Assembly: GCA_016870325.1 (NCBI GenBank)
Contig: VGBV01000005.1
Location: forward strand, 1-43,361
Source of the DNA: Actinomycetota bacterium
Lineage (GTDB): Bacteria; Actinomycetota; Thermoleophilia; Solirubrobacterales; 70-9
Reading direction: 5' to 3'
DNA length: 43,361 nucleotides
Position 1 is the stretch's first letter; each line of letters starts with the position of its first letter. The notes beneath the pieces are model-generated. The model ran no database searches, had not been told where the DNA came from, and saw only the letters and a program-made list of their open reading frames with translations. The translations under genes were made by a program, and so were the position numbers. Positions 8,781 to 22,509 of this stretch are shown in pieces.

Positions 8781-8944
8781 ATGATTGATTCCACGACCAC
8801 GCACGCCTGAGGCCCCGCATGGCGCATCGCATCCCGGCGTCCTCGGGCCTGCCCTTGGCGCCACCAAGGGCTGCGCCATGCGTCCTTGGGCTGCTCGGCC
8901 ATGCGTGCCCTCAGGCGCACGGCGCCGTGGAATCAATCATCTAG
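8777..8944. repeat. CTAG-bounded dyad element 2 (long copy of a repeat family)
   Basis: This 168-base element has perfect 19-base ends, CTAGATGATTGATTCCACG and its complement at 8926-8944. Further inward the arms still pair (CGCCTGAGG and CGCATGGC with their complements), giving arms of about 46 bases. The right end contains the TAG stop of the SCP2/R2-like gene. A 57-base relative with nearly identical ends is at 37339-37395, so this is a dispersed family. Elements 1 and 2 together fill the 323-base gap between the two convergent genes, and I see nothing else there. Confidence 0.75.
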
Positions 8945-10716
8945 GCGGGCGCGGGGGTCGGATCGGGCTCGTCGACGCGACTGCGCTCGTCGAGGCCGCT
9001 GAAGTCGCAGGGGCCGGGCATCAGCTCCTCGGCGGGCGGGATCTCGACGCCGATCATCTTCATGCGGCGGCTCAGCGCCTGGTAGGCGAAGCCGTAGATC
9101 TGCGAGGAGTGATGCCCGTAGGACCAGAAGTCCGCGGAGTTCCGCTCCTGGCGCGGCACGAAGACCTTGGCCGACTCGGGAAGCAACTCGCAGAGGCGGT
9201 CCACGATCACCTGCTTCATCTCGGGGCGCTCCCGGCAGACGTCGCGCAGGAAGCGGACGCCGAAGGCGATGTGGCGGTGCTCGTCCTGCTCGACCAGGCG
9301 GAAGCCCTCGTTGAAGCCCGGGTAGATCTGGTGGTCGTCGGTGTACTGGATCAGGAGCCGCTGGCCCGGCATCGCCAGCACCCCCTCGGTGACCATGTGG
9401 TAGGTGACGACGCCCTGCACGAACAGCTCCAGGTCGTCGGGGCGGGCCTTGATGCGGTCGGCGATGTCGCGCAGGGAGTCGTCGAAGAGGAAGTGCCAGG
9501 GGCCCATCTGCTGCAGGTGCTCCTCGATCTCGCGCAGGCGCGAGCGCAGGTCGTCTGACTCCAGCGCCATCACCTCGGCCATGAAGCGGTCGAAGAAGAT
9601 GGCGTGGCGCATCTCGTCGACGAGCTGGGTCGAGAGGAAGGCCTCGACCTCGCCGCTGGGGGCGGCGAGCACGAACGGGGCCAGGTCCGCGGTGACGCGC
9701 TCCTCGCCGACGTAGAAGCTGCCAAAGCTGAACATGGTCTCGAGCTGCGCCTCGGAGGGGTTGGCGAGCCAGTGCTCGCGGTCGACCGAGAAGTCGAGCT
9801 CGTGCGCGCGCCAGTTCTGGCGCTCCCAGAGCGCGTAGAGCTGCTCGTAGTCCATCAACCCGCCCTTGGGGCGGCTGGCTGCGCCGGGATCGCCGGGGTC
9901 GTCGGCCGCGGGCTTCGACCCCCAGGTCCCGGAGTGGCGCCGCTGGGTCTCGCGCTGGCGCGCCTCGCGCTCCAGCTCGGGGCCGTCCTGGCCCGCGGCT
10001 CGGTCGATCCAGCGGCCCATCAGGGTGACCGGTGGGACCTTTCCCTTGATCTCGGTCAGGCTGAGCCGCGTGGCGTCGGTCGGCGAGAGCTCGCCCGAGA
10101 GCAGCCGCAGCCAGTCGGAGTGGCGCATGCGGACGATGGCGTCTGCCTCGGCGTCGAGACCGGCCTGGCAGGAGATCGCTCCGTCGTCGACCCTGATCGT
10201 CCAGGCCCCGCCGCCCTCACCGACCAGCTCGTAGGCGATCGCGAAGCGGTGGCCGCGGGTCCACTCGGGCTCGATCGCATAGGCGAGCGAGCGATAGAGC
10301 AGGTCGGCGTCGATCGGCAGCCCGGCCTGGGCGAGCTCGCGCGGGCCCGCCTCCTGGTTCATCCGCCGCAGCGCCAGCGCCTTGCGGCGCTTGCCGCGCA
10401 CCCGCACGCGGCGGCGCAGCATCGCCGCGATCGGGTTCGAGCCGCCGGCGAGCTCGGCGAGGGTGCGGGAGTCGGTCTCGATCGCGAACGCGTCCCCGTT
10501 GAGCTCGCCGCCGGGGCTGACCTCGTCGACCCGGGCGTGGCCGCCGTTCGGCGACACGCGCCAGGCCCCCAGGTCCCGGAGCTCGAGGCGATAGCTCAGC
10601 CCCTCGGGCAGCGACGCGGCGGCCACCGGAAGCGACTGCAGCATCAGCCTGGCGGCGAGCTGGGGCTCCGACTCGGCCATGCGGCGGAGCGCTTCGTTCG
10701 CTGTTCCGCGGGCCAT
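8941..10716 (-). CDS. Tandem SCP2-like domains fused to an R2-like ferritin diiron protein
   Basis: A 591-residue fusion. Residues about 35-120 and 135-245 look like two SCP2 sterol-carrier-type lipid-binding domains (the second with HRFAIAYELVG, WTIRVDDGAIS and a later LMGRWIDRA). A charged linker (about 245-288) leads to an R2-like ferritin domain (about 288-575). A full set of diiron ligands can be seen: Glu338 or 339 (VGEERV), Glu368-x-x-His371 (DEMRH), Glu444 (VTEG) and Glu479-x-x-His482 (EHRH). Ribonucleotide reductase R2 and the R2lox ligand-binding oxidases share this pattern. No large ribonucleotide reductase subunit gene is nearby. An oxidase acting on a lipid-like substrate is an inference. 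The start is ATG at 10716. Confidence 0.75.
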   Translation of the reverse strand: MARGTANEALRRMAESEPQLAARLMLQSLPVAAASLPEGLSYRLELRDLGAWRVSPNGGHARVDEVSPGGELNGDAFAIETDSRTLAELAGGSNPIAAMLRRRVRVRGKRRKALALRRMNQEAGPRELAQAGLPIDADLLYRSLAYAIEPEWTRGHRFAIAYELVGEGGGAWTIRVDDGAISCQAGLDAEADAIVRMRHSDWLRLLSGELSPTDATRLSLTEIKGKVPPVTLMGRWIDRAAGQDGPELEREARQRETQRRHSGTWGSKPAADDPGDPGAASRPKGGLMDYEQLYALWERQNWRAHELDFSVDREHWLANPSEAQLETMFSFGSFYVGEERVTADLAPFVLAAPSGEVEAFLSTQLVDEMRHAIFFDRFMAEVMALESDDLRSRLREIEEHLQQMGPWHFLFDDSLRDIADRIKARPDDLELFVQGVVTYHMVTEGVLAMPGQRLLIQYTDDHQIYPGFNEGFRLVEQDEHRHIAFGVRFLRDVCRERPEMKQVIVDRLCELLPESAKVFVPRQERNSADFWSYGHHSSQIYGFAYQALSRRMKMIGVEIPPAEELMPGPCDFSGLDERSRVDEPDPTPAPA

Positions 10717-10801: not shown

Positions 10802-11599
10802 TTGTTCGGACCCGAGTCCGCACATTCCCCGAATGCCGACGACCTCAACGCCCTCTATTGGGTGTTGCTGGCGATCGCCGTCGCGCTCGCGCTCGCGATC
10901 AACGGCGCGCTGATCTGGTTGGCGATGCGCTACCGGACCGCTCGGGGGAGCGAGCCGCGCCGGCTCCGTAGCCGCCGCCCGGCGCAGGTCCTCGTAGCCG
11001 GCTCCTTCGGCGTCCTCGCCCTGGTCCTGTTCGTGCTCGGCGTCGTCTTCACCGAGAGCGCCAGCGACGTCGAGCCCTCGGGCCCCGATGGGCTCCAGGC
11101 CTCGAGCCAGCTCACCGCCCAGCGCGACCTCTCGATTCCCGTCGACACCGAGCCGCTCACCATCACCGCCTCCGGCCAGCAGTGGCTGTGGCGCTACGAG
11201 TACCCGGACGGGACCTACTCCTACTACGAGCTCGTCGTCCCCGTCGACACCGCGGTGCTGGTCGAGCTCGACTCGACCGACGTCGTCCACCGCTGGTGGG
11301 TACCCGGGCTGGGGGGCAAGTTCGACGTCGTCCCCAACCAGGTCAGCCGCACCTGGTTCAAGGCGGACACCGAGGGCGTCTACTACGGCTCGAGCTACCA
11401 GTTCTCCGGCGCCTCCTACGCAGCGATGCGCACCGAGGTTCAGGTCGTCAGCCCGACCGAGTACCAGGCCTGGCTGACCCAGCAGGCTGACGACATCGCG
11501 GCGGCCCAGGACTTCGTGCAGGAGGAGCTGGCGATCCGCGGCGAGCCCGGGACGCGCTCCGGGGCCGCCAGCGTGCAACCCGTCGGAGGTGAGCAGTGA
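10802..11599 (+). CDS. Cytochrome oxidase subunit II homologue lacking CuA ligands
   Basis: A 265-residue subunit II homologue with two N-terminal membrane helices (about 18-42 and 62-84) and an exported cupredoxin domain. Family landmarks are present: GQQWLWRYEYPDG at 125-137 and VVHRWWVPGL at 161-170, including the conserved His163. The CuA loop, normally CxExCxxxHxxM, reads SYQFSGASYAAM at 198-209. Both Cys are Ser (198, 202), Glu is Gln200 and His is Tyr206; only Met209 and His163 remain. It should not bind the dinuclear CuA centre. Quinol oxidase subunit II also lacks CuA, but the partner subunit I lacks all metal ligands too. The start is TTG at 10802 with almost no leader. Its TGA overlaps the next gene's GTG (GTGA). 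Confidence 0.88.
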   Translation: MFGPESAHSPNADDLNALYWVLLAIAVALALAINGALIWLAMRYRTARGSEPRRLRSRRPAQVLVAGSFGVLALVLFVLGVVFTESASDVEPSGPDGLQASSQLTAQRDLSIPVDTEPLTITASGQQWLWRYEYPDGTYSYYELVVPVDTAVLVELDSTDVVHRWWVPGLGGKFDVVPNQVSRTWFKADTEGVYYGSSYQFSGASYAAMRTEVQVVSPTEYQAWLTQQADDIAAAQDFVQEELAIRGEPGTRSGAASVQPVGGEQ

Positions 11600-13338
11600 G
11601 CGGTGCCATCACCCCACAGCGGCCCGAGCTGGTCAGCGAGGGCGTCCCCTCGCGGAGACCGCGCTGGCTCGAGATCGCGACCAGCGGCGACCACAAGGAC
11701 GTCGGCCGCATGCTGGTGGCCGCCTCGCTCGGGTTCCTAACCCTGGGCCTGCTCGCCTTCCTGCTGATCAGGCTGCAGCTGATCGTTCCCGAGAACACCC
11801 TGATCGAGCCCGTCACCTTCAATCGCCTGCTGTCGGTGATGGCGGCGACGCTGGTGATGCTGTTCGCGCTGCCGCTCGCGCTCGGGCTCTTCACCTACCT
11901 TGTGCCGCTGCAGGTGGGCGCGCGCTCGCTCGCCTTCCCGCGCCTGGCGAACCTGGGCGCCTGGCTCTACATCGTCGGCGGCGCGGTCCTCTACATCAGC
12001 TTCGTCTACACGCCCCCCGAAGCCGGCGTCAACCCGCTGCCGCCCCTCTCGGACACCGCCTTCATCTCCAACAACGGCGTCGACGTCTGGATCGCCGCGG
12101 TCGGCTTGAGCGCGCTCGGCTTCACGCTGCTGGCGCTGAACCTGTTGGTGACGCTCCGGAAGATGCGCGCTCCCGGTCTGGCCTGGCGGCGGCTCCCGCC
12201 CTTCTCCTTCTCGGCGGCGGTCTCGAGCTGGATCCTGCTCGTGATCGGGCCGGCGATGCTGGCGGCGCTGACGATGCTGGAGATCGACCGCCACTTCGGA
12301 GGCGTCTTCTTCGACCCCGGCGAAGGCGGCGCGCCAACCTATTGGCAGCACCTGAGCTGGATCTTCTTCACCGGCTGCTACCTGCTGATGATCCTGCCCG
12401 CCGCGGGCGCGATCTCCGAGATCCTTCCGACCTTCTCGCGCAAGCCGCTGATCTCCCGGCGCGCGGTCAACGCCTCGATGGCCGCGATCGGCGCGATCGG
12501 GCTGCTGGCGTGGATGCAGAACATGTTCACCGCCTCGATCCCGGTCGGCTGGCTCTACTTCGCGATGCTGGCGGCGCTGGCGCTGATCGTGCCGCTGGGC
12601 GTCCTGTTCGTGAACTGGCTGGGCACGCTCGCCTCGGGCGCGATCGAGATGCGCGCGCCGATGCTGTTCGCGCTCGGCGCGATCTCGACGCTCTCGATCG
12701 GGCTCACGGCCGAGCTCGCGCACGCCGTCGTCCCGGTCAACTGGCTGCTCGCCGACACGACCGACTCGACCGGCGCGACCGGCTACGTGCTGGTGGGCGG
12801 CTCTGTGCTCGGCGGCCTCGCCGCCCTGCACTACTGGTTCCCGAAGATGACCGGGCGCCTGATGGGCGAGTCGCAGGCCAGGATCTCGTTCTGGGCGATC
12901 ATCGCCGGGGTGCAGCTGACCTTCATCCCGATGTTCCTGGCGGGGTTGAACGGCCAGCCCGTCGACGCCTACAAGTACTACGAGGACAGCGTCTATGACG
13001 GCTCCGGGACGGGCCTGGAGGTCGTCACCGACAGCTTCCAGAGTCTCGATACCTACAACCTGCTGACCACGATCGGCGCCTTCATCCTGGTGACGGGCAT
13101 CGTGCTGTCGCTGGTCAACGCGGTGCGCAGCCTCAGCCACGGCGTCCGCGCCGGCCACGACCCGTGGGGGGGCGACACGCTCGAGTGGCTGGCCCTCTCG
13201 CCGCCGCCTCCGCACAACTTCGACGTCGTCCCCGATGTGCGCAGCGACGAGCCGATGCGCGACATCCGCGACGCCGTCAGGGAGCGCCAGGCGCCGGCGC
13301 CGCCCGCCAAGGCCGAGAGCGACGAGCCGGTAGCCTGA
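11596..13338 (+). CDS. Heme-copper oxidase subunit I homologue lacking all heme and copper ligands
   Basis: A 580-residue multi-helix membrane protein that aligns with CoxA along its length: GDHKDVGRM at 31, TYLVPLQVGA at 100, LAFPRLANL at 112, ISEILPTFSRKPL at 273 and HYWFPKMTGRLMGE at 412. The ligands are missing. The low-spin heme His position is Met82. The HPEVY segment reads TGCYL at 259-263. The CuB His pair is Gln308-Asn309 (WMQNMF). The HxH that binds both hemes is Ala394-Thr-Gly396. The D-channel Asp is Ser111, the E286 region is lost, and the K-channel Lys position is Leu337. The reading frame is clean and codon use resembles its neighbours. It is a non-catalytic homologue by sequence; its function is unknown. 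Confidence 0.88.
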   Translation: MSGAITPQRPELVSEGVPSRRPRWLEIATSGDHKDVGRMLVAASLGFLTLGLLAFLLIRLQLIVPENTLIEPVTFNRLLSVMAATLVMLFALPLALGLFTYLVPLQVGARSLAFPRLANLGAWLYIVGGAVLYISFVYTPPEAGVNPLPPLSDTAFISNNGVDVWIAAVGLSALGFTLLALNLLVTLRKMRAPGLAWRRLPPFSFSAAVSSWILLVIGPAMLAALTMLEIDRHFGGVFFDPGEGGAPTYWQHLSWIFFTGCYLLMILPAAGAISEILPTFSRKPLISRRAVNASMAAIGAIGLLAWMQNMFTASIPVGWLYFAMLAALALIVPLGVLFVNWLGTLASGAIEMRAPMLFALGAISTLSIGLTAELAHAVVPVNWLLADTTDSTGATGYVLVGGSVLGGLAALHYWFPKMTGRLMGESQARISFWAIIAGVQLTFIPMFLAGLNGQPVDAYKYYEDSVYDGSGTGLEVVTDSFQSLDTYNLLTTIGAFILVTGIVLSLVNAVRSLSHGVRAGHDPWGGDTLEWLALSPPPPHNFDVVPDVRSDEPMRDIRDAVRERQAPAPPAKAESDEPVA

Positions 13339-13344
13339 CGGCCA

Positions 13345-14409
13345 ATGGATGGCCCTCGCTCCGGGGCGGGCGGGAGTGAACAGCTCCGCCGCTTCCGCCT
13401 CTTCGCAGACCTGACGGTCGTCGCGACCTTCGCCCTGATCGTGCTCGGCGGGATCGTCCGCGTCAGCGAGTCCGGCCTGGGCTGCGGCCCGGGTGGCAGC
13501 GGCACCGAGGGCTGGCCGCTCTGCAACGGCGAGGCGATCCCGTTCTTCCACAACACCGAGGTGATCGTCGAGTTCTCGCACCGCACCCTGGCGGCGATCG
13601 TGACGGCCCTGATCGCCGTCCTCGTCTGGACCGCGTACCGGCACCTGCGCGAGCTGCGCTGGCCGCTGCGCCTGTCGCTGGTCGCGGCGGGCCTGGTGCT
13701 CGTGCAGGCGGCGCTCGGCGGCCTCACCGTGGAGAAGAGCCTCGCCGAGGAGCTCGTCGCCGCCCACCTGGGCCTGGCGATGATCCTGATCGGGCTGCTG
13801 CTCTGGATCGGCGTCCGCGCCCGCGCCGAGCTCGCCGCGAGCAAGCCCGGCGAGGGCCCCAAGCCCTCCTCGGCGGCGCCGGTGCGCGGGCTGAAGCCCT
13901 TCGCCGCGGCCGCCGCGGTGCTGCTGCTCTGCGCGATCGTCGCGGGCGGCTACGTCGCCGGCACCGAGGAGGAGGGCATCCACGGCAGCGGCAAGAACAT
14001 CGCCGGCGCCCACATGGCCTGCGGCGAGCAGTTCCCCGGCTGTCTCAACCAGGGCATAGCCCCGTTCGGGGTCAGCAGGCTCTCGGACATACACCTGACC
14101 CACCGCATGTTCGTCTACGCGACGACCTTCGCCATCCTGCTGCTGCTCGGCGTCGCCTGGCGGCGCGGCGCGCGCTCCCCCCTGATGGCCACGGCCCTGG
14201 GCCTGCTGGTGGTCCAGGTCGCGCTCGGCGCGCTCAACGTCGTGCTCGAGGAGCACGCGGCCCTGATCGTCGCCCATCTGATCATCGCCACGCTGCTCTG
14301 GAGCACCCTGCTGCTGATCGCCTACACCCTCGCCTGGTCGCCGGCCCCCGCGCTGGCGAGATCGCCGGCGGGGCGCAAGGCCCGGTCCGCCGCGACGGCG
14401 GAGGCCTGA
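13345..14409 (+). CDS. ctaA: Heme A synthase CtaA
   Basis: A 354-residue polytopic membrane protein of the COX15/CtaA family, which oxidises the C8 methyl of heme O to make heme A for aa3 oxidases. Visible features are IVLGGIVRVSESGLGC near residue 33 and a Cys pair in each half (about 47/60, then CGEQFPGC near 225-232). Heme-ligand histidines lie in EFSHR, AAHLG, THRMF and VAHLI, two per four-helix half. The Cys-pair loop matches the type with a redox-active disulfide on the outer face. It starts 7 bases after the ligand-less subunit I gene and runs straight into ctaB, so it is co-transcribed with them. Confidence 0.92.
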   Translation: MDGPRSGAGGSEQLRRFRLFADLTVVATFALIVLGGIVRVSESGLGCGPGGSGTEGWPLCNGEAIPFFHNTEVIVEFSHRTLAAIVTALIAVLVWTAYRHLRELRWPLRLSLVAAGLVLVQAALGGLTVEKSLAEELVAAHLGLAMILIGLLLWIGVRARAELAASKPGEGPKPSSAAPVRGLKPFAAAAAVLLLCAIVAGGYVAGTEEEGIHGSGKNIAGAHMACGEQFPGCLNQGIAPFGVSRLSDIHLTHRMFVYATTFAILLLLGVAWRRGARSPLMATALGLLVVQVALGALNVVLEEHAALIVAHLIIATLLWSTLLLIAYTLAWSPAPALARSPAGRKARSAATAEA

Positions 14410-14410
14410 G

Positions 14411-15397
14411 GTGGAGGCCAAGACAGGCACCTTCGCGCGAAGGCGCCTGCAGGCGGGCCGCAACGCCGCCGCCCGTCGCCGCGAGCGCCACGGCGGGACC
14501 GAGGCCGCGCTCTCGAGCGCGCTCGAGCGCCACGGCGCGCTGCAGGTGCTGCGCGACTACTTCGCGCTGACCAAGCCGAGGGTGATCTCGCTGCTGCTGC
14601 TGACGACGGTCGCCTCGATGTTCGTCGCCGACCCCTCGGGGCCGCCGCTCTCGACGATCCTCTGGACCATGCTCGGCGGCTATCTCGCGGCCGGCGGGGC
14701 GGGCGCGATCAACCACTACCTCGAGCGCGAAGCGGACGCCCGCGTGGCACGCACCATGGGCCGGCCGATCGCCAGCGGCAGGATCGAGCCCTGGCACGGC
14801 CTCGCCTTCGGGATCGCGCTGGGCGCGATCGCCGTCGCCCAGCTGGGGCTGACCGTGAACACGCTGACCGCGGTGCTCGCGGCCGGCGGCCTGCTCGGCT
14901 ACATCTTCCTCTACACGCTGTGGTTGAAGCCCCGCACGCCGCTCAACATCGTGCTCGGGGGCGCCGCCGGCGCGGTGCCGCCTCTGGTCGGCTGGGCCGC
15001 GGCGACCGGCGAGCTCTCCGCCCAGGCGCTGTGGCTGTTCGCGATCGTCTTCTTCTGGACCCCGCCTCACTTCTGGGCGCTGTCGCTGCTGATCGCCGAC
15101 GACTACGCCCGCACCGGGGTGCCGATGCTTCCGGTCGTCCGCGGCGAGGGAGAGACCCGGCGCCAGATCCTGACCTACACGGTGCTGCTGGTCGCGATCT
15201 CGGTGGGGCCGGTGCTGACCGGGCTGTTCGGCGGCATCTACCTGGCTTCGGCGCTGCTGCTGGGCGCCGCCTTCATCGTGCTGGCCCACCGCCTCTCCGC
15301 CGAGGCCTCGAAGCAGGCCGCCCGCGTCCTCTACCTGAGCTCGCTCGCCTACCTGGCGCTGCTGTTCGTGGCGATGGCCGTGGACCGCGCCGCGTAG
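14411..15397 (+). CDS. ctaB: Heme O synthase (protoheme IX farnesyltransferase) CtaB
   Basis: A 328-residue UbiA-family membrane prenyltransferase that farnesylates protoheme IX to heme O. LTKPRVISLLLLTTVASM marks the first helix. The prenyl-diphosphate/Mg site is the NHYLEREADARVARTMGRP region. YTLWLKPRTPLNIVLGG and the later DDYARTGVPMLPVV complete the family pattern. About 50 residues precede the family core and are basic. The GTG at 14411 begins one base after the ctaA stop. It supplies the CtaA substrate; both probably serve the canonical oxidase at 17.8-22.5 kb as well as whatever the local pair does. Confidence 0.93.
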   Translation: MEAKTGTFARRRLQAGRNAAARRRERHGGTEAALSSALERHGALQVLRDYFALTKPRVISLLLLTTVASMFVADPSGPPLSTILWTMLGGYLAAGGAGAINHYLEREADARVARTMGRPIASGRIEPWHGLAFGIALGAIAVAQLGLTVNTLTAVLAAGGLLGYIFLYTLWLKPRTPLNIVLGGAAGAVPPLVGWAAATGELSAQALWLFAIVFFWTPPHFWALSLLIADDYARTGVPMLPVVRGEGETRRQILTYTVLLVAISVGPVLTGLFGGIYLASALLLGAAFIVLAHRLSAEASKQAARVLYLSSLAYLALLFVAMAVDRAA

Positions 15398-15867: not shown

Positions 15868-16269
15868 CTACGGGGGCGTGATCGAGCTGGTCGCGCCGAC
15901 CGTCGTCCAGACGCGGACGATGTCGCGCATCGAGAGCACCCCGACGAGCTCACCTCTCTCGACCACGACCAGGTGGCGGATGCCGAGCTTGACCATCTCC
16001 TCGGCGGCGCGCTCGAGGCTCCAGTCCGGCGGCGCCGAGATCACGCTGTCGCTCATGTGATCTGCGACCAGGGCCTTGTCGGGGTCCTCCCCGCCGCCGA
16101 TCGCGTTCAACACGTCGCGCTCGGTGATGATCCGCGGCGCCGGCGAGTGCTCGTCGAAGACGAGCGCGGCGCCGGTTCCCTTCTCGGTCATCTTGGCCGC
16201 GGCGTCGCGCAGCGTGTGCCCCGGCCCCACGGCCAGGATCACGCTCGACATGCCTTCGCGAACCTCCAC
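15868..16269 (-). CDS. Two-CBS-domain protein
   Basis: A 133-residue protein that is essentially one CBS pair (Bateman module). The first repeat holds LRDAAAKMTEKGTGAALVFD and ITERDVLNAI; the second holds LERAAEEMVKLGIRHLVVVE and GVLSMRDIVRVW. Such stand-alone modules bind adenine nucleotides and often sense energy state. I chose the GTG at 16269 because GAGGAG sits 5 bases upstream; an ATG six codons in is the alternative. It is divergent from the diheme cytochrome gene. The target is unknown. Confidence 0.85.
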   Translation of the reverse strand: MEVREGMSSVILAVGPGHTLRDAAAKMTEKGTGAALVFDEHSPAPRIITERDVLNAIGGGEDPDKALVADHMSDSVISAPPDWSLERAAEEMVKLGIRHLVVVERGELVGVLSMRDIVRVWTTVGATSSITPP

Positions 16270-16408: not shown

Positions 16409-17083
16409 ATGCGGCTTCCTCGAAGCAGAAGGCAGGTGAAGCTCATCCTCGGCGCGGCTGCGTCCGTGGCGGCCCTGGCCGCCCTGACCGGGTGCGACCT
16501 GCAGGAGGACGCCGACACCGAGCGCGGCGAGCAGCTCTTCACCGAGAAGTGCGGAGGCTGCCACGTGCTGACCGGGGCCGGGACCAACGGCGACATCGGG
16601 CCCGACCTCGACCTGGCCTTCCAGGACGCGCGCGCGTCCGGCATGGACCAGGACACGATCGAGGGCGTCGTCCAGACCCAGATCGCGAACCCGCGGCCGG
16701 CCGACCCCGCCGACACGACCGTCTACATGCCCGCCAACCTGGTCGAGGGCGAGGACGCCGAGGCCGTCGCCGCCTACGTCGCGAGCGTCGCCGGCTTGCC
16801 GGGCATCGAGGCGCCCGAGTTCATCGCCCCGGAGTTCTTCGCGGCCAACTGCGGCGGCTGCCACACGCTCGGGGCCGCCGGCACGACCGGCGACATCGGC
16901 CCCAACCTCGACGACGTGCTGCCCGGGCAGAGCCCCGCGCAGATCGCCGAGTCGATCGCCGACCCCAGCGCCCAGATCTCATCCGGCTTTCCCGACGGTG
17001 TCATGCCCGCCTACGCGGACACCCTGACGCCGAAGCAGCTGCAGCAGCTGGTCCAGTACCTGCAGCAGTCGGTCGGCGGCTGA
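16409..17083 (+). CDS. Diheme cytochrome c lipoprotein
   Basis: A 224-residue exported electron-transfer protein. A basic, hydrophobic signal ends in the lipobox LTGC (Cys29), predicting attachment to the outer face of the membrane. Two cytochrome c domains follow, each with a CxxCH heme site: CGGCH at 48-52 and again at 148-152. Likely Met axial ligands are in YMPAN (107) and VMPAYAD (199). The halves share GAxGTxGDIGP, which points to internal duplication. It may donate electrons to the canonical oxidase with the intact CuA site nearby (inference). It stands alone, divergent from the CBS gene and convergent with vapC. Confidence 0.88.
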   Translation: MRLPRSRRQVKLILGAAASVAALAALTGCDLQEDADTERGEQLFTEKCGGCHVLTGAGTNGDIGPDLDLAFQDARASGMDQDTIEGVVQTQIANPRPADPADTTVYMPANLVEGEDAEAVAAYVASVAGLPGIEAPEFIAPEFFAANCGGCHTLGAAGTTGDIGPNLDDVLPGQSPAQIAESIADPSAQISSGFPDGVMPAYADTLTPKQLQQLVQYLQQSVGG

Positions 17084-18070: not shown

Positions 18071-18697
18071 CTAGAGGATGTAGACGGTCACGAACACGAT
18101 GATCCACATCACGTCCACGAAGTGCCAGTAGATCCCGGGCACCTCGACGCCCAGGTGGTCCTTGGCCGCGGGGCCGTAGTGGCCGCGGAAGGCGCGCACG
18201 CTGGCGATCGCCAACAGCGTCAGACCGATGAAGACGTGCGCTCCGTGGAGTCCCGTGAGGCCGTAGAAGATCGAGCCGAAGGCGTCGTCGCGGGCGCTGA
18301 ATCCGATGTGGACGTACTCGTTCAGCTGGATGAAGAGGAAGGTCGCGCCGAGCAGGAAGGTCGAGACGAGACCCATCTTCAGCCCGCGGTGGTTGCCGGC
18401 GCGGATCGACTCGAGCGCCCAGTGCATGGTGAAGCTGGAGCTGACCAGGATCGCGGTGTTGAAGCCCGCGATCAGGACCGGCAGCTCGAACGGCTCGGGC
18501 GGCCAGGGGCCTTCGTTGGCGACGACGCGGAGGAAGAAGTAGGAGGCGAAGAACGCCCCGAACAGCATCGTCTCGGTGATGATGAAGAGCAGGATCCCGA
18601 GCGTCTGCCGATCGATCTTGGAGCTCTCGTGGGCCTCCGGCGGGCCGTGATGGTGGTCGTCGGGGTGGGCCCCGGCGGCCAGGGAAGCCGACTCCAT
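18071..18697 (-). CDS. ctaE: Cytochrome c oxidase subunit III
   Basis: A 208-residue subunit III with several membrane helices. Family signatures include LGILLFIITETMLFGAFFASYFFLR near residue 33, GLTGLHGAHVFIGL and the ending YWHFVDVMWIIVFVTVYIL. Subunit III stabilises subunit I and its proton uptake. The ATG at 18697 overlaps the stop of the preceding stress-like gene (TGATG). A His-rich stretch (HPDDHHHGPPEAH) precedes the first helix. Confidence 0.93.
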   Translation of the reverse strand: MESASLAAGAHPDDHHHGPPEAHESSKIDRQTLGILLFIITETMLFGAFFASYFFLRVVANEGPWPPEPFELPVLIAGFNTAILVSSSFTMHWALESIRAGNHRGLKMGLVSTFLLGATFLFIQLNEYVHIGFSARDDAFGSIFYGLTGLHGAHVFIGLTLLAIASVRAFRGHYGPAAKDHLGVEVPGIYWHFVDVMWIIVFVTVYIL

Positions 18698-19752
18698 CAG
18701 GCGCTCACCCCCGCTGCTGCCGGCTCGCTCGAAGCCCGTCCGGGGCTCGACTCGATGTGCTCGACCGGGATCTCCGTGATCTCCTTGACGCGCTCGATCA
18801 GCCCGTCGTCGAGCCACTGGGACTGCTGGCCCTTGAGGGTGGAGATCAGGATCTCGTCGACCCGGTAGTGCTCGATCGCATTCTCGATCGCGTGGAAGGG
18901 CTCGGGGCTCATCGGCTGGCCCGTGGCGTCGATGTCCTTGCGGTAGAGCTCGGCGAGCGTGGCCGCCAGGTTGGCGCAGACCTCCTCGCGCTCGACGTCG
19001 CCCGAGCGCGGGCAGATGAAGGTGAAGCGATGGGGCTTGTCCTTGGCGCGCCGCTCGAGCTCATCCAGCAGGCCCTTGCTGTGCACCGTCTTCGTGCCGA
19101 CCACCAGGGTGTGGGTCAGGTCCCAGCGCACCGCGTCGTCGTCGACCCGGACCGGGACGTGCTCGACGCGCGCCTCGAGCCGGTCCTTGGCCCACTCGAC
19201 CAGAGACTTGCGCGTGAGCCCGAAACGGGTGTCGTAGAGAGCCGAGATCAGCACGTAGTCGGGCTTGGTCGCCCGCGCCGCGTCATCGAGCGCCAGCGAG
19301 GAGTCGGGGTCCATGACCCCACCCTCGGTCTCGATCCCGAAGTCGGAGAGCACAGCGCGGGTGACGTCGACGCGGCTCTGGGCGGCTTCGCGCAGCTCCG
19401 TGGTGTCGACGATCTGGCCCACCGCGGGCTGGTTCTGGGGTGCGACCACGCCGAAATAGTCGGCGCCGGCGCCGGCCAGCTCGCGCGCGGCCGTGACCAG
19501 CTTGCGCCCGCCGGCGACCTCGTTCAGGAAGATCAGGACCCGCTCCACGCCCTCGCGCGATGGCGGCGGGTCGGGGTCGCCCTGGCCGCTGGGCTCGGGG
19601 GCCGCGACGACCTCGGACTCGTGCTCGGCCGGGGTGCCGATGTCGGTCGACTCCTCGCCCGAGAGGCCGGGGTCGGGTGAGGTCGGATCCTCGCCGGGGG
19701 AGTCGAGCGCGTCGGCGATCGCCTCGTCCGCCTTCCTCTCGGCGTCGCTCAC
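18697..19752 (-). CDS. Universal-stress-protein-like protein within the oxidase operon
   Basis: A 351-residue soluble protein. About 65 acidic, Pro-rich residues are followed by two alpha/beta regions resembling UspA folds, the first starting RVLIFLNEVAGGRKLVTAAREL and the second RWDLTHTLVVGTKTVHS. The end of the second holds HYRVDEILISTLKGQQSQWL, similar to the nucleotide-binding end of USP domains. The GTG at 19752 overlaps the coxA stop (GTGA), and its own stop overlaps the coxC start, so it is tightly locked into the operon. Its role is unknown; regulation or assembly of the oxidase is a guess. Confidence 0.6.
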   Translation of the reverse strand: MSDAERKADEAIADALDSPGEDPTSPDPGLSGEESTDIGTPAEHESEVVAAPEPSGQGDPDPPPSREGVERVLIFLNEVAGGRKLVTAARELAGAGADYFGVVAPQNQPAVGQIVDTTELREAAQSRVDVTRAVLSDFGIETEGGVMDPDSSLALDDAARATKPDYVLISALYDTRFGLTRKSLVEWAKDRLEARVEHVPVRVDDDAVRWDLTHTLVVGTKTVHSKGLLDELERRAKDKPHRFTFICPRSGDVEREEVCANLAATLAELYRKDIDATGQPMSPEPFHAIENAIEHYRVDEILISTLKGQQSQWLDDGLIERVKEITEIPVEHIESSPGRASSEPAAAGVSA

Positions 19753-21662
19753 GAGGGCGCCCCGATGCCGGCCCTACTGGGCTCGGGCCGCTTCACCTCG
19801 GCCTCCTCGCCGGCCATGATCGCGTGCCGGGCGCCCGGGACCCCGAACTCATAGGGGCCGCCGACCACCCGCGGGATCTCGTCGAAGTTGAAGATCGGCG
19901 GCGGCGAGCTGACCTGCCACTCGATCGTCTTCGCGCGCCAGGGGTTGGGCCCGGCCTTGGGCCCGTAGCGCCAGCTGACGATCATGTTGTAGAGGAAGAC
20001 GAGCTGCACGGCGCCGAGGATGAAGGCCGAGACCGTGATCATCAGGTTCCAGTTGCCGAACTCGGCCGCGTAGTCGGCGACGCGCCGCGGCATCCCCTCC
20101 ATCCCGATCCAGTGCATCGGCACGAACGTGCCCCAGGTCCCGACCAGGGTGCCCCAGAAGTGGATGCGCCCGAGCCGCTCGTCGTACATGCGGCCCGTCA
20201 TCTTCGGGAACCAGTGGTAGATGCCGGCGAAGATCGTGAACACCGAGCCGCCGAAGAGCACGAAGTGGATGTGGGCGACGACGAAGTAGGTGTCGCTGAC
20301 GTGGATGTCGATCGGGATCATCCCCAGCATCACGCCGGAGATGCCGCCGATCGTGAAGGTGACGATGAAGGCGAGCGAGAACAGCATCGCCGTGGACTTG
20401 AGGTGGATCTTGGCCTCGAACAGCGTTCCCAGCCAGGAGAAGATCTTGATCCCCGTCGGCACCGCGATTAGCAGCGTCGTGATCATCATCGGCACCCGCA
20501 GCCACTCGAACATCCCGGCCACGAACATGTGGTGGGCCCAGACGGTGTAGCTCAGGATCACGATCCCGAGCAGCGCCAGGGCCATCAGCCGGTAGCCGAA
20601 GATCGGCTTGCGCGCGTGGGTCGAGATGACCTCGCTGATGATCCCGAAGCCGGGCAGCATCATGATGTAGACCGCCGGGTGGGAGTAGAACCAGAAGATG
20701 TGCTGGTAGCTGATGACATCGCCGCCAAAGGCCGCCTGGAAGAAGTTGGTGTGCAGGACGCGGTCGAACAGGACCATGAACTGGACGCCTGCGATGAACG
20801 GCGTCGCGGCCACGACCAGCAGCGAGGTCGAGAGGTTCGCCCAGACGAGCAGCGGCATCCGCCAGATCGTCATCCCGGGCGCACGCATAGTGATGATCGT
20901 CACGAGGAAGTTGAGGGCCGTCGCCACCGACGAGGCGCCGGCGAACTGGACCCCGAGGTTGAAGAAGCTCTGGCCCAGCGGGGCCCCGGTCGAGAGCGGG
21001 GCGTAGCCCGTCCAGCCGGCGTCGAAGGCGCCGCCGGGGACGAAGTAGCTCGCCAGGAAGAGGGCGCCGGCGATCGGCAGCATCCAGAACGAGAGCGCGT
21101 TCAGGCGCGGGAACGCCATGTCGGGCGCGCCGATCATCAGCGGCAGCACGTAGTTGGCGATCCCGGCGAAGACCGGGATCACGAAGACGAAGATCATCAG
21201 CGCCGCGTGGGTGGAGAAGAGCCCGTTGAAGACCCCGGGGTCGACGATCTGGGTGCCGGGCTGGGCCAGCTCGGCCCGCATCAGCATCGCCAGGAAGCCG
21301 CCCGCGAAGAAGAAGAAGAATGTGGTGACGATGTACTGGATGCCGATCACCTTGTGATCGGTGTTGACCTTGAAGTAGTCCTTCCAGGTCTTTGCGCCGT
21401 GGTCGGCGTGGTCGTCGGGGATCGTCGGCGCGCCGGCGCACCAGCGGAACCAGTAGTCGAAGCAGCCGATCCCGATCAGGAACCCGAGCGGGCCGGTGAT
21501 GGCCGGGACGACGATATGCGGGTAGCCGGTCGGCTCGGTCTGGTAGAGGTCGAGGCCCGAGATCGCGCGCAGCGCGATCACCAGGCCGAAGCCGAAGCCG
21601 GCACCGATCAGGAAGTAGAAGAGGCCGCGCCACCAGCCGGGGCTGGTCAGTGCCGACGTCAT
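19749..21662 (-). CDS. ctaD: Cytochrome c oxidase subunit I, A2 type
   Basis: A 637-residue catalytic subunit with every ligand in place: low-spin heme His152 (STHAALM), CuB His328 and cross-link Tyr332 (YSHPAVY), CuB His377-His378 (WAHHMF), and His464 and His466 (VAHIHFV) for the two hemes. K-channel Lys406 (PTGIKIF) is present. Glu of HPEVY is replaced by Ala with a preceding Tyr-Ser, the mark of A2-type oxidases. About 95 N-terminal residues with two extra hydrophobic segments (near 12-34 and 49-66) precede the usual subunit I start. It reduces oxygen and pumps protons. It stands between coxB and the stress-like gene. Confidence 0.95.
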   Translation of the reverse strand: MTSALTSPGWWRGLFYFLIGAGFGFGLVIALRAISGLDLYQTEPTGYPHIVVPAITGPLGFLIGIGCFDYWFRWCAGAPTIPDDHADHGAKTWKDYFKVNTDHKVIGIQYIVTTFFFFFAGGFLAMLMRAELAQPGTQIVDPGVFNGLFSTHAALMIFVFVIPVFAGIANYVLPLMIGAPDMAFPRLNALSFWMLPIAGALFLASYFVPGGAFDAGWTGYAPLSTGAPLGQSFFNLGVQFAGASSVATALNFLVTIITMRAPGMTIWRMPLLVWANLSTSLLVVAATPFIAGVQFMVLFDRVLHTNFFQAAFGGDVISYQHIFWFYSHPAVYIMMLPGFGIISEVISTHARKPIFGYRLMALALLGIVILSYTVWAHHMFVAGMFEWLRVPMMITTLLIAVPTGIKIFSWLGTLFEAKIHLKSTAMLFSLAFIVTFTIGGISGVMLGMIPIDIHVSDTYFVVAHIHFVLFGGSVFTIFAGIYHWFPKMTGRMYDERLGRIHFWGTLVGTWGTFVPMHWIGMEGMPRRVADYAAEFGNWNLMITVSAFILGAVQLVFLYNMIVSWRYGPKAGPNPWRAKTIEWQVSSPPPIFNFDEIPRVVGGPYEFGVPGARHAIMAGEEAEVKRPEPSRAGIGAPS

Positions 21663-21744: not shown

Positions 21745-22509
21745 TCATGAGGCGGGCGAGCCCGCGGGCTCGGGCTGGTCGGACGGGATCGGATCCTGCT
21801 CGGAGATCCACCTGTCGAACTCGGCCCGGGTCTCGTGCACGACCACCGGAGCGCGCATGGTCGTGTGCCCGAGGCCGCAGAGCTCGGTGCAGACCAGGCT
21901 GAATTCGCCCGCCCGGTCGGGGGTGACCACGAAGTCGTCGTCGATGCTGGCGCCGGGGGCCCCCGGTACTGCGTCGCGCTTGATCCGCCACTCCGGCACC
22001 CAGAACGAATGCAGCACGTCGAGGGCGCGCATCGTCACCTCGACCTGGCGGTCCTCGACGACGTGCAGCTCGTCGGCCTGCACGTTCTGCTCGGGGTAAG
22101 TGAAGCTCCAGGCGAACTGCTGGCCGGTCACGGTGATCGGTATCGCGCCGGGCTCGCTCGCCTCGATGTCGTCGAGCACGACCCAGGAGTAGCCCGCGAG
22201 CCCCAGCACGATCACCGTCGGGATCACGGTCCAGATGATCTCCAGGCGCGTGTTGCCGTGGATCGGCTCGCCGTCGCCCTCGTCCCCGGGCTTCGCGCGC
22301 CAGCGATAGATCGCGTAGAAGAGGGGCACCATCACGATCCAGAAGACGAAGGACGAGAGCACGATGGCGACGTCGAGCAGGCGGTCGATGTCGGCGGCGG
22401 CGGTCGAAGCCTGCTCCCCGTTCCAGTCGGGGATCAGCATGAGCACGCTGGTGATGACCGTGAGGACGATCGTCGCCGCCGCGAGCCTGAGGATCGGGAG
22501 ACCCTGCAT
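21745..22509 (-). CDS. ctaC: Cytochrome c oxidase subunit II with intact CuA site
   Basis: A 254-residue subunit II with two membrane helices (about 10-26 and 46-68) and a periplasm-facing cupredoxin domain. Landmarks are GQQFAWSFTYPE and LHSFWVPEW. The CuA loop CTELCGLGHTTM is complete with both Cys, Glu, His and Met. It accepts electrons from cytochrome c and passes them to subunit I. It is the first gene of the canonical operon, separated from coxA by 82 bases. Contrast it with the CuA-less paralog at 10802-11599. Confidence 0.95.
   Translation of the reverse strand: MQGLPILRLAAATIVLTVITSVLMLIPDWNGEQASTAAADIDRLLDVAIVLSSFVFWIVMVPLFYAIYRWRAKPGDEGDGEPIHGNTRLEIIWTVIPTVIVLGLAGYSWVVLDDIEASEPGAIPITVTGQQFAWSFTYPEQNVQADELHVVEDRQVEVTMRALDVLHSFWVPEWRIKRDAVPGAPGASIDDDFVVTPDRAGEFSLVCTELCGLGHTTMRAPVVVHETRAEFDRWISEQDPIPSDQPEPAGSPAS

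Follow-up and report, generated by a model that had tools for sequence, protein, structure and literature searches.

A heme-copper oxidase subunit I paralogue without heme or CuB ligands, and its subunit II without a CuA site, in a family of Solirubrobacterales

Subunit I of the A-type oxidases (CtaD/CoxA) and subunit II of cytochrome c oxidase (CoxB/CtaC; PF00116) are the closest described relatives of a gene pair, coxB2-coxA2, found in a 43,361-nucleotide stretch of DNA (hereafter the window) from an Actinomycetota bacterium of the order Solirubrobacterales (contig VGBV01000005.1). A-type subunit I shares with CoxA2 the COX1 fold, 12 transmembrane (TM) helices and the tail motif LEW..SPPP..NF, but CoxA2 is without the ligands of heme a, heme a3 and CuB, the active-site Tyr, the D- and K-channel residues and the propionate Arg pair. 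Similarly, subunit II shares with CoxB2 two TM helices, the cupredoxin domain and the motifs WRYEYP and DVxHxWW, while CoxB2 has Ser, Ser and Tyr for Cys, Cys and the second His. Subunit II is without CuA in the quinol oxidases (CyoA, QoxA) as well; however, their subunit I is fully catalytic, whereas here subunit I is dead too. Pseudoenzyme subunits of respiratory complexes, such as the MPP-like core proteins of complex III, which have no catalytic activity, are also dead paralogues kept for structure; they differ from the present case, where a whole two-subunit redox core is concerned and the loss occurred more than once. The initial annotation of the window knew of no family with these losses and, likewise, no description of a metal-free oxidase pair was found in the open-access library searched, subscription papers being outside its scope and novelty not proven. 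A published classifier of these oxidases discarded sequences without the six conserved His (PMC3084760), and this rule would therefore hide a ligandless CoxA2 family.

Metal sites of CoxA2 and CoxB2

The two genes of the pair are as follows:
10802..11599, plus strand: coxB2, subunit II paralogue with a cupredoxin domain (Pfam COX2, E=5.8e-19)
11596..13338, plus strand: coxA2, subunit I paralogue of 580 aa with 12 TM helices and no heme or CuB ligand

The coxA2 frame is open, begins with GTG and shares 4 bases with the tail of coxB2, the gene before it. CoxA2 matched the Pfam model COX1 (PF00115) across the whole model with E=2.7e-93, which was its sole Pfam match, and it aligned end to end with solved A-type oxidases, the best being that of C. 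glutamicum (7q21, 32-33% identity). Its identity with CoxA1, the canonical subunit I of the same window (19749-21662, minus), was 33%. The view that this is a full-length subunit I read without frame changes was thus borne out. Ligands are numbered here as in P. denitrificans (H94, H276, Y280, H325, H326, H411 and H413). At these positions CoxA2 has M82, T259, L263, Q308, N309, A394 and G396, and CoxA1 reads HHYHHHH; alignment with the canonical copy thereby confirmed the gene coordinates and the residues first reported (Met82, 259-263, Gln308-Asn309, Ala394 and Gly396). None of the six His ligands of the low-spin heme, the high-spin heme and CuB was found in the aligned CoxA2 (MTLQNAG vs HHYHHHH), and the alignment also placed L263 where the Tyr linked to a CuB His would stand. 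The A-type D- and K-channel residues were gone, as had been claimed, with D124 replaced by S, N131 by A and K354 by L in the same alignment, and H403 was also lost. Beyond the features listed in the initial annotation, the heme-propionate Arg pair R473/R474 was replaced by V456/D457, L370 and E373 stood in for two glycines of helix IX that pack against heme a3 (bovine G352/G355), and CoxB2 had lost its CuA site. The TM6 stretch WQHLSWIFFTGCYLLMILP was equal in length to the canonical one, with 'QN' in register with 'HH'. Displaced His residues as an explanation were ruled out by the gapless alignment through the ligand helices and by the agreement of nearly all relatives.

The fold of CoxA2 is predicted to be intact. 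AlphaFold2, with 66 related sequences as input, produced a model with the full helix set (pLDDT 92.9, pTM 0.91), and a Foldseek comparison of this model with solved subunit I structures gave query-normalised TM scores of 0.82-0.88, the best solved matches being oxidase subunit I. By fold and ancestry (PF00115, Foldseek and the tree) CoxA2 is a member of the heme-copper oxygen reductase superfamily; its TIGR02891 score was 419 bits, below the cut-off of 671. It does not belong with the nitric oxide reductases (cNOR/qNOR), since it has no His at the metal positions and its nearest relatives are A-type oxidases. Judged by these residues, CoxA2 would carry out no oxygen reduction. Furthermore, heme is unlikely to occupy the old sites in the window's branch because the propionate Arg pair is lost and Leu and Glu stand at two helix-IX glycines; these sites are probably empty of heme there.

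The partner gene showed a matching loss. The CuA ligands Cys, Cys and His of CoxB2 were replaced by Ser, Ser and Tyr, and the first His and the Met were retained (HSQSYM vs canonical HCECHM), so that CoxB2 is without the full CuA ligand set of a cytochrome c oxidase, namely two Cys, two His, Met and a Glu carbonyl. Its TIGR02866 score of 137.4 fell under the cut-off of 147.7, and its AlphaFold2 model (pLDDT 82) showed a pair of TM helices together with a beta domain. Evolutionary distances of coxA2 and coxB2 correlated at 0.78 after control for ctaB, compared with 0.50 for coxA1 and coxB1, which is suggestive only but consistent with a retained I-II complex. CoxA2 and CoxB2 probably still pair.

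Distribution, selection and origin of the ligand loss

The family of the source bacterium (the window's family, of the Solirubrobacterales, Actinomycetota) encodes coxA2 in 35 of 37 genomes, the exceptions being G014 (54% complete) and G002. The canonical ligand set was present in none of its 36 distinct CoxA2 sequences, and the ligand loss is therefore not a chance event. The CuB His pair had N in 36/36 sequences and additionally Q in 35/36. Position H94 held Y in 22/36 and, in the rest, F, M, G, A or another residue, and H413 was retained in 20/36. Many relatives are thus of the YTMQNAH type, with the former low-spin His H413 persisting opposite Tyr at H94; that no heme is held at all is a firm reading in the window's branch, which does not extend to the family as a whole.

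Both subunits had also lost ligands in a second family of the order, represented by one genus (5/5 genomes). All had S at H94, H276 was mostly retained, H325 was replaced by V, Q or T and H326 by V, H413 was retained in 2/5, propionate R474 was replaced by E, and subunit II was dead too. A helix-IX glycine position was His in four of these five (L106, L109, L113, L138, L139), where the window's family has Glu; this pocket was thus rebuilt differently. One genome of a third family, G158, had HQYSRQH in subunit I and HSQGFM in subunit II (L163 / L211), and its congener G180 was intact in both subunits (L169 / L212). The dead oxidase of G158 still has both low-spin heme His and resembles an early step in this conversion. 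Subunit I was intact in about 70 further orthologues of the order and class, and their subunit II, wherever it was found, had both Cys and both His. Across the three lineages, loss of ligands in subunit I was always paired with loss of CuA in subunit II.

Phylogenetic trees placed all coxA2 sequences in one clade of the order, the other members of which are complete A1-type oxidases (GHPEVY). G158 and G180 grouped at 100/100 support, and the window's family and the second family were sisters at 100/99, where both branches are long and long-branch attraction may contribute. A single origin of all losses was rejected: the approximately unbiased (AU) test gave p=0.008, and the congener G180 is intact. 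Ligand loss arose more than once, and the loss in G158 is independent. The trees indicate that coxA2 descends directly from an A1-type cytochrome c oxidase with all its ligands, which other families of the order still possess. The dead copy is no recent duplicate of CoxA1, because CoxA1 is of the YSHPAVY kind, without the Glu.

Selection was measured as the ratio of nonsynonymous to synonymous rates (dN/dS) in pairwise maximum likelihood comparisons, and saturated dS values (over 5) were excluded. The dead coxA2 gave 0.026-0.08 in close pairs and up to 0.15 in wider ones, compared with 0.02-0.064 for active copies, and likelihood-ratio tests against dN/dS = 1 gave values well over 100 in every tested pair. 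Frames were open in family members at 50-80% identity, and no internal stops occurred in the family. Decay into a pseudogene in relatives, which had been named as a possible refutation, was thus not seen among these family members and pairs, neither as a broken frame nor as a dN/dS near 1. A frameshift or sequencing artefact was ruled out by orthologues 80% and 71% identical and by the single-contig genome G004. In addition, several replacement residues were themselves conserved in the window's family: Q308 in 35/36, N309 in 36/36, L370 in 35/36, E373 in 34/36 and D457 in 35/36. These columns were within roughly the most conserved fifth of CoxA2, and columns 82, 263, 394 and 396 were within its more variable third; this split would look like partial reuse of the site together with abandoned heme ligands. 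The most conserved segment was the C-terminal tail, residues 516-558, with 17 of 43 columns invariant. The wide retention, the dN/dS far below 1, the confident fold and the new conserved residues collectively uphold the earlier suggestion of selection for a non-catalytic role.

Genes around the pair

The window also encodes the following genes:
13345..14409, plus strand: ctaA, heme A synthase (Pfam COX15-CtaA, E=9e-38)
14411..15397, plus strand: ctaB, heme O synthase (TIGR01473, 317 bits)
16409..17083, plus strand: two-domain c-type cytochrome (Pfam Cytochrom_C / CBB3, two stretches)
18071..18817, minus strand: coxC1, subunit III of the canonical oxidase (Pfam COX3, E=2e-39)
19749..21662, minus strand: coxA1, canonical subunit I (Pfam COX1, E=5e-150), with all ligands (HHYHHHH)
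21745..22509, minus strand: coxB1, canonical subunit II (TIGR02866 over cut-off), with a complete CuA site (HCECHM)

The order coxB2-coxA2-ctaA-ctaB lies 6 kb off the canonical oxidase. The ctaA gene was the only copy found in its own genome, and the Glu and four His of its protein family were seen by eye; ctaB was the only full copy found there (one match over the cut-off). Throughout the order, ctaB is directly behind the coxA2 unit. Every checked genome with a dead pair also encodes a ligand-complete oxidase, and the canonical operon was within a few kb of coxA2 in nearly all members with long contigs.

Several other genes of this region were conserved. A protein with two CBS domains (15868-16269, minus) and the cytochrome c (16409-17083, plus) stay by the dead unit across the family. 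Between coxA1 and coxC1, a gene for a 351-aa protein (18697-19752, minus) is conserved in the family; it had no Pfam match and, judged by eye, resembles two universal-stress-protein-like halves. The divergent neighbour (8941-10716, minus) appeared by eye to join a lipid-carrier-type domain to a ferritin-like (R2-like oxidase) one, and it is kept beside coxB2 in a same-genus genome (78%). The source genome also carries a short COX1 fragment (C1:19403-19660, L003; 34.8 bits) just before a heme-binding-like CHTF stretch in another frame, and it seems to be a remnant of a different type of oxidase.

Possible roles of the pair

With somewhat less than even confidence, we propose that coxB2-coxA2 may encode a dead, (nearly) metal-free heterodimer that partners the active oxidase, structurally or in its assembly. 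As the sequences show, both subunits lost their metal sites together, starting from a complete A1-type oxidase, and purifying selection keeps the pair. The former CuB/heme-a3 pocket was rebuilt with a conserved Gln-Asn-Leu-Glu set and an Asp at the former propionate-Arg site. CoxA2 and CoxB2 would assemble as an I-II unit, and this unit would partner the respiratory chain, most likely the active oxidase coxB1-coxA1-coxC1 next door, for example as a supercomplex occupant or as a docking platform during assembly. Contact would be made via surfaces and the conserved cytoplasmic C-terminal tail, not via cofactors. Partnership with the canonical oxidase would be the most economical of the options offered by the initial annotation.

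Some observations speak against such a partner role. G002 has no coxB2, coxA2 or ctaB yet retains coxA1, and a dead pair may thus be dispensable. This genome (L209, L210) is 97% complete in five contigs, and heme O synthase ctaB was not detected in it; either this part of the genome is missing from the assembly, or the loss is real and would deprive the oxidase of heme A. Moreover, dN of the dead coxA2 was 2-5 times that of coxA1 in the same genome pairs, and 16 times in G158/G180, whereas dN of active coxA2 and coxA1 in sister families was about equal (0.043/0.042, 0.083/0.091 and 0.106/0.100; one pair 0.143/0.088). Constraint is looser in the dead copy than in the enzyme; since dN/dS is nevertheless far below 1, constraint has changed and not vanished. 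The C-terminal tail is conserved in active oxidases too and need not be a new docking site, and the correlation between coxA2 and coxB2 distances comes from 11 genomes only.

A heme A (or heme O) hand-over platform, in which CoxA2-CoxB2 would take heme from CtaB/CtaA and give it to apo-CoxA1, appears unlikely. The only ctaA and the only full ctaB of the genome directly follow coxA2, ctaB adjacency is near-universal in the family, and G002, the relative without coxA2, is also without detectable ctaB. However, ligand-complete coxA2 in sister families sits in the same gene order, coxB-coxA-(ctaA)-ctaB, with or without ctaA. The linkage to heme synthesis was therefore inherited, is older than the ligand loss and argues only weakly for a role as heme chaperone; we rejected it as independent evidence, and the initial argument from a coupled operon loses its force. 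In G004, ctaA is far from the unit. H413 and Tyr at H94, found in 20-22/36 members, could still hold heme, but in the window's branch neither low-spin ligand and neither propionate Arg remains, and Leu and Glu replace two Gly of helix IX.

New transport or ion conduction is equally improbable. The pocket would here have been rebuilt as a buried polar or acidic site (T259-Q308-N309-E373 and D457) for a proton, an ion or a small molecule, as may be suggested by these replacements, which differ from the ancestral residues yet rank with the best-conserved columns in the family. Against this, the D-channel (D124, N131) and the K-channel (K354) are both lost, leaving no inherited route of proton uptake and weakening the ion path put forward earlier, and the second family has a different set, in which H stands in place of the Glu, V of the Asn and E of the Asp.

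A residual electron carrier, in which some family members would keep a low-spin heme ligated by Tyr/His or His/His, is very unlikely. YTMQNAH-type members do have H413 with Tyr at H94, and G158 retains H94 and H413 with every other site lost; in the window's branch, however, M82, G396 and the absence of CuA leave neither an entry nor a heme site, and column 396 is among the most variable of the family. A slowly decaying functionless relic, or an assembly or binning artefact, is highly improbable and already largely refuted, for although the dead copy evolves faster than coxA1, the pair is absent from G002 and independent losses would fit relaxed selection once another oxidase suffices, the pair is kept in nearly all family genomes, including single-contig G004, without internal stops, at dN/dS of 0.03-0.15 and with new residues near-invariantly fixed.

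Beyond such a partner role, it is possible, though doubtful, that the oxidase core was converted at least twice in one order to a cofactor-free membrane machine with a new, conserved polar site instead of the binuclear centre and a function of its own, such as transport, sensing or an obligate scaffold. If true, such a converted core would add a previously undescribed kind of member to the heme-copper superfamily. Metal ligands define this superfamily, and under the published classification ligandless proteins are invisible by design. Counts of coxA genes in genomes and metagenomes overstate the number of oxidases. The dead redox pair beside an active copy, together with the recent, independent loss in the genus of G158 and the intact G180, offers a natural experiment on the oxidase scaffold apart from catalysis. 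Taken together, the fold of a respiratory oxidase appears to have been reused in these soil actinobacteria for a job other than oxygen reduction.
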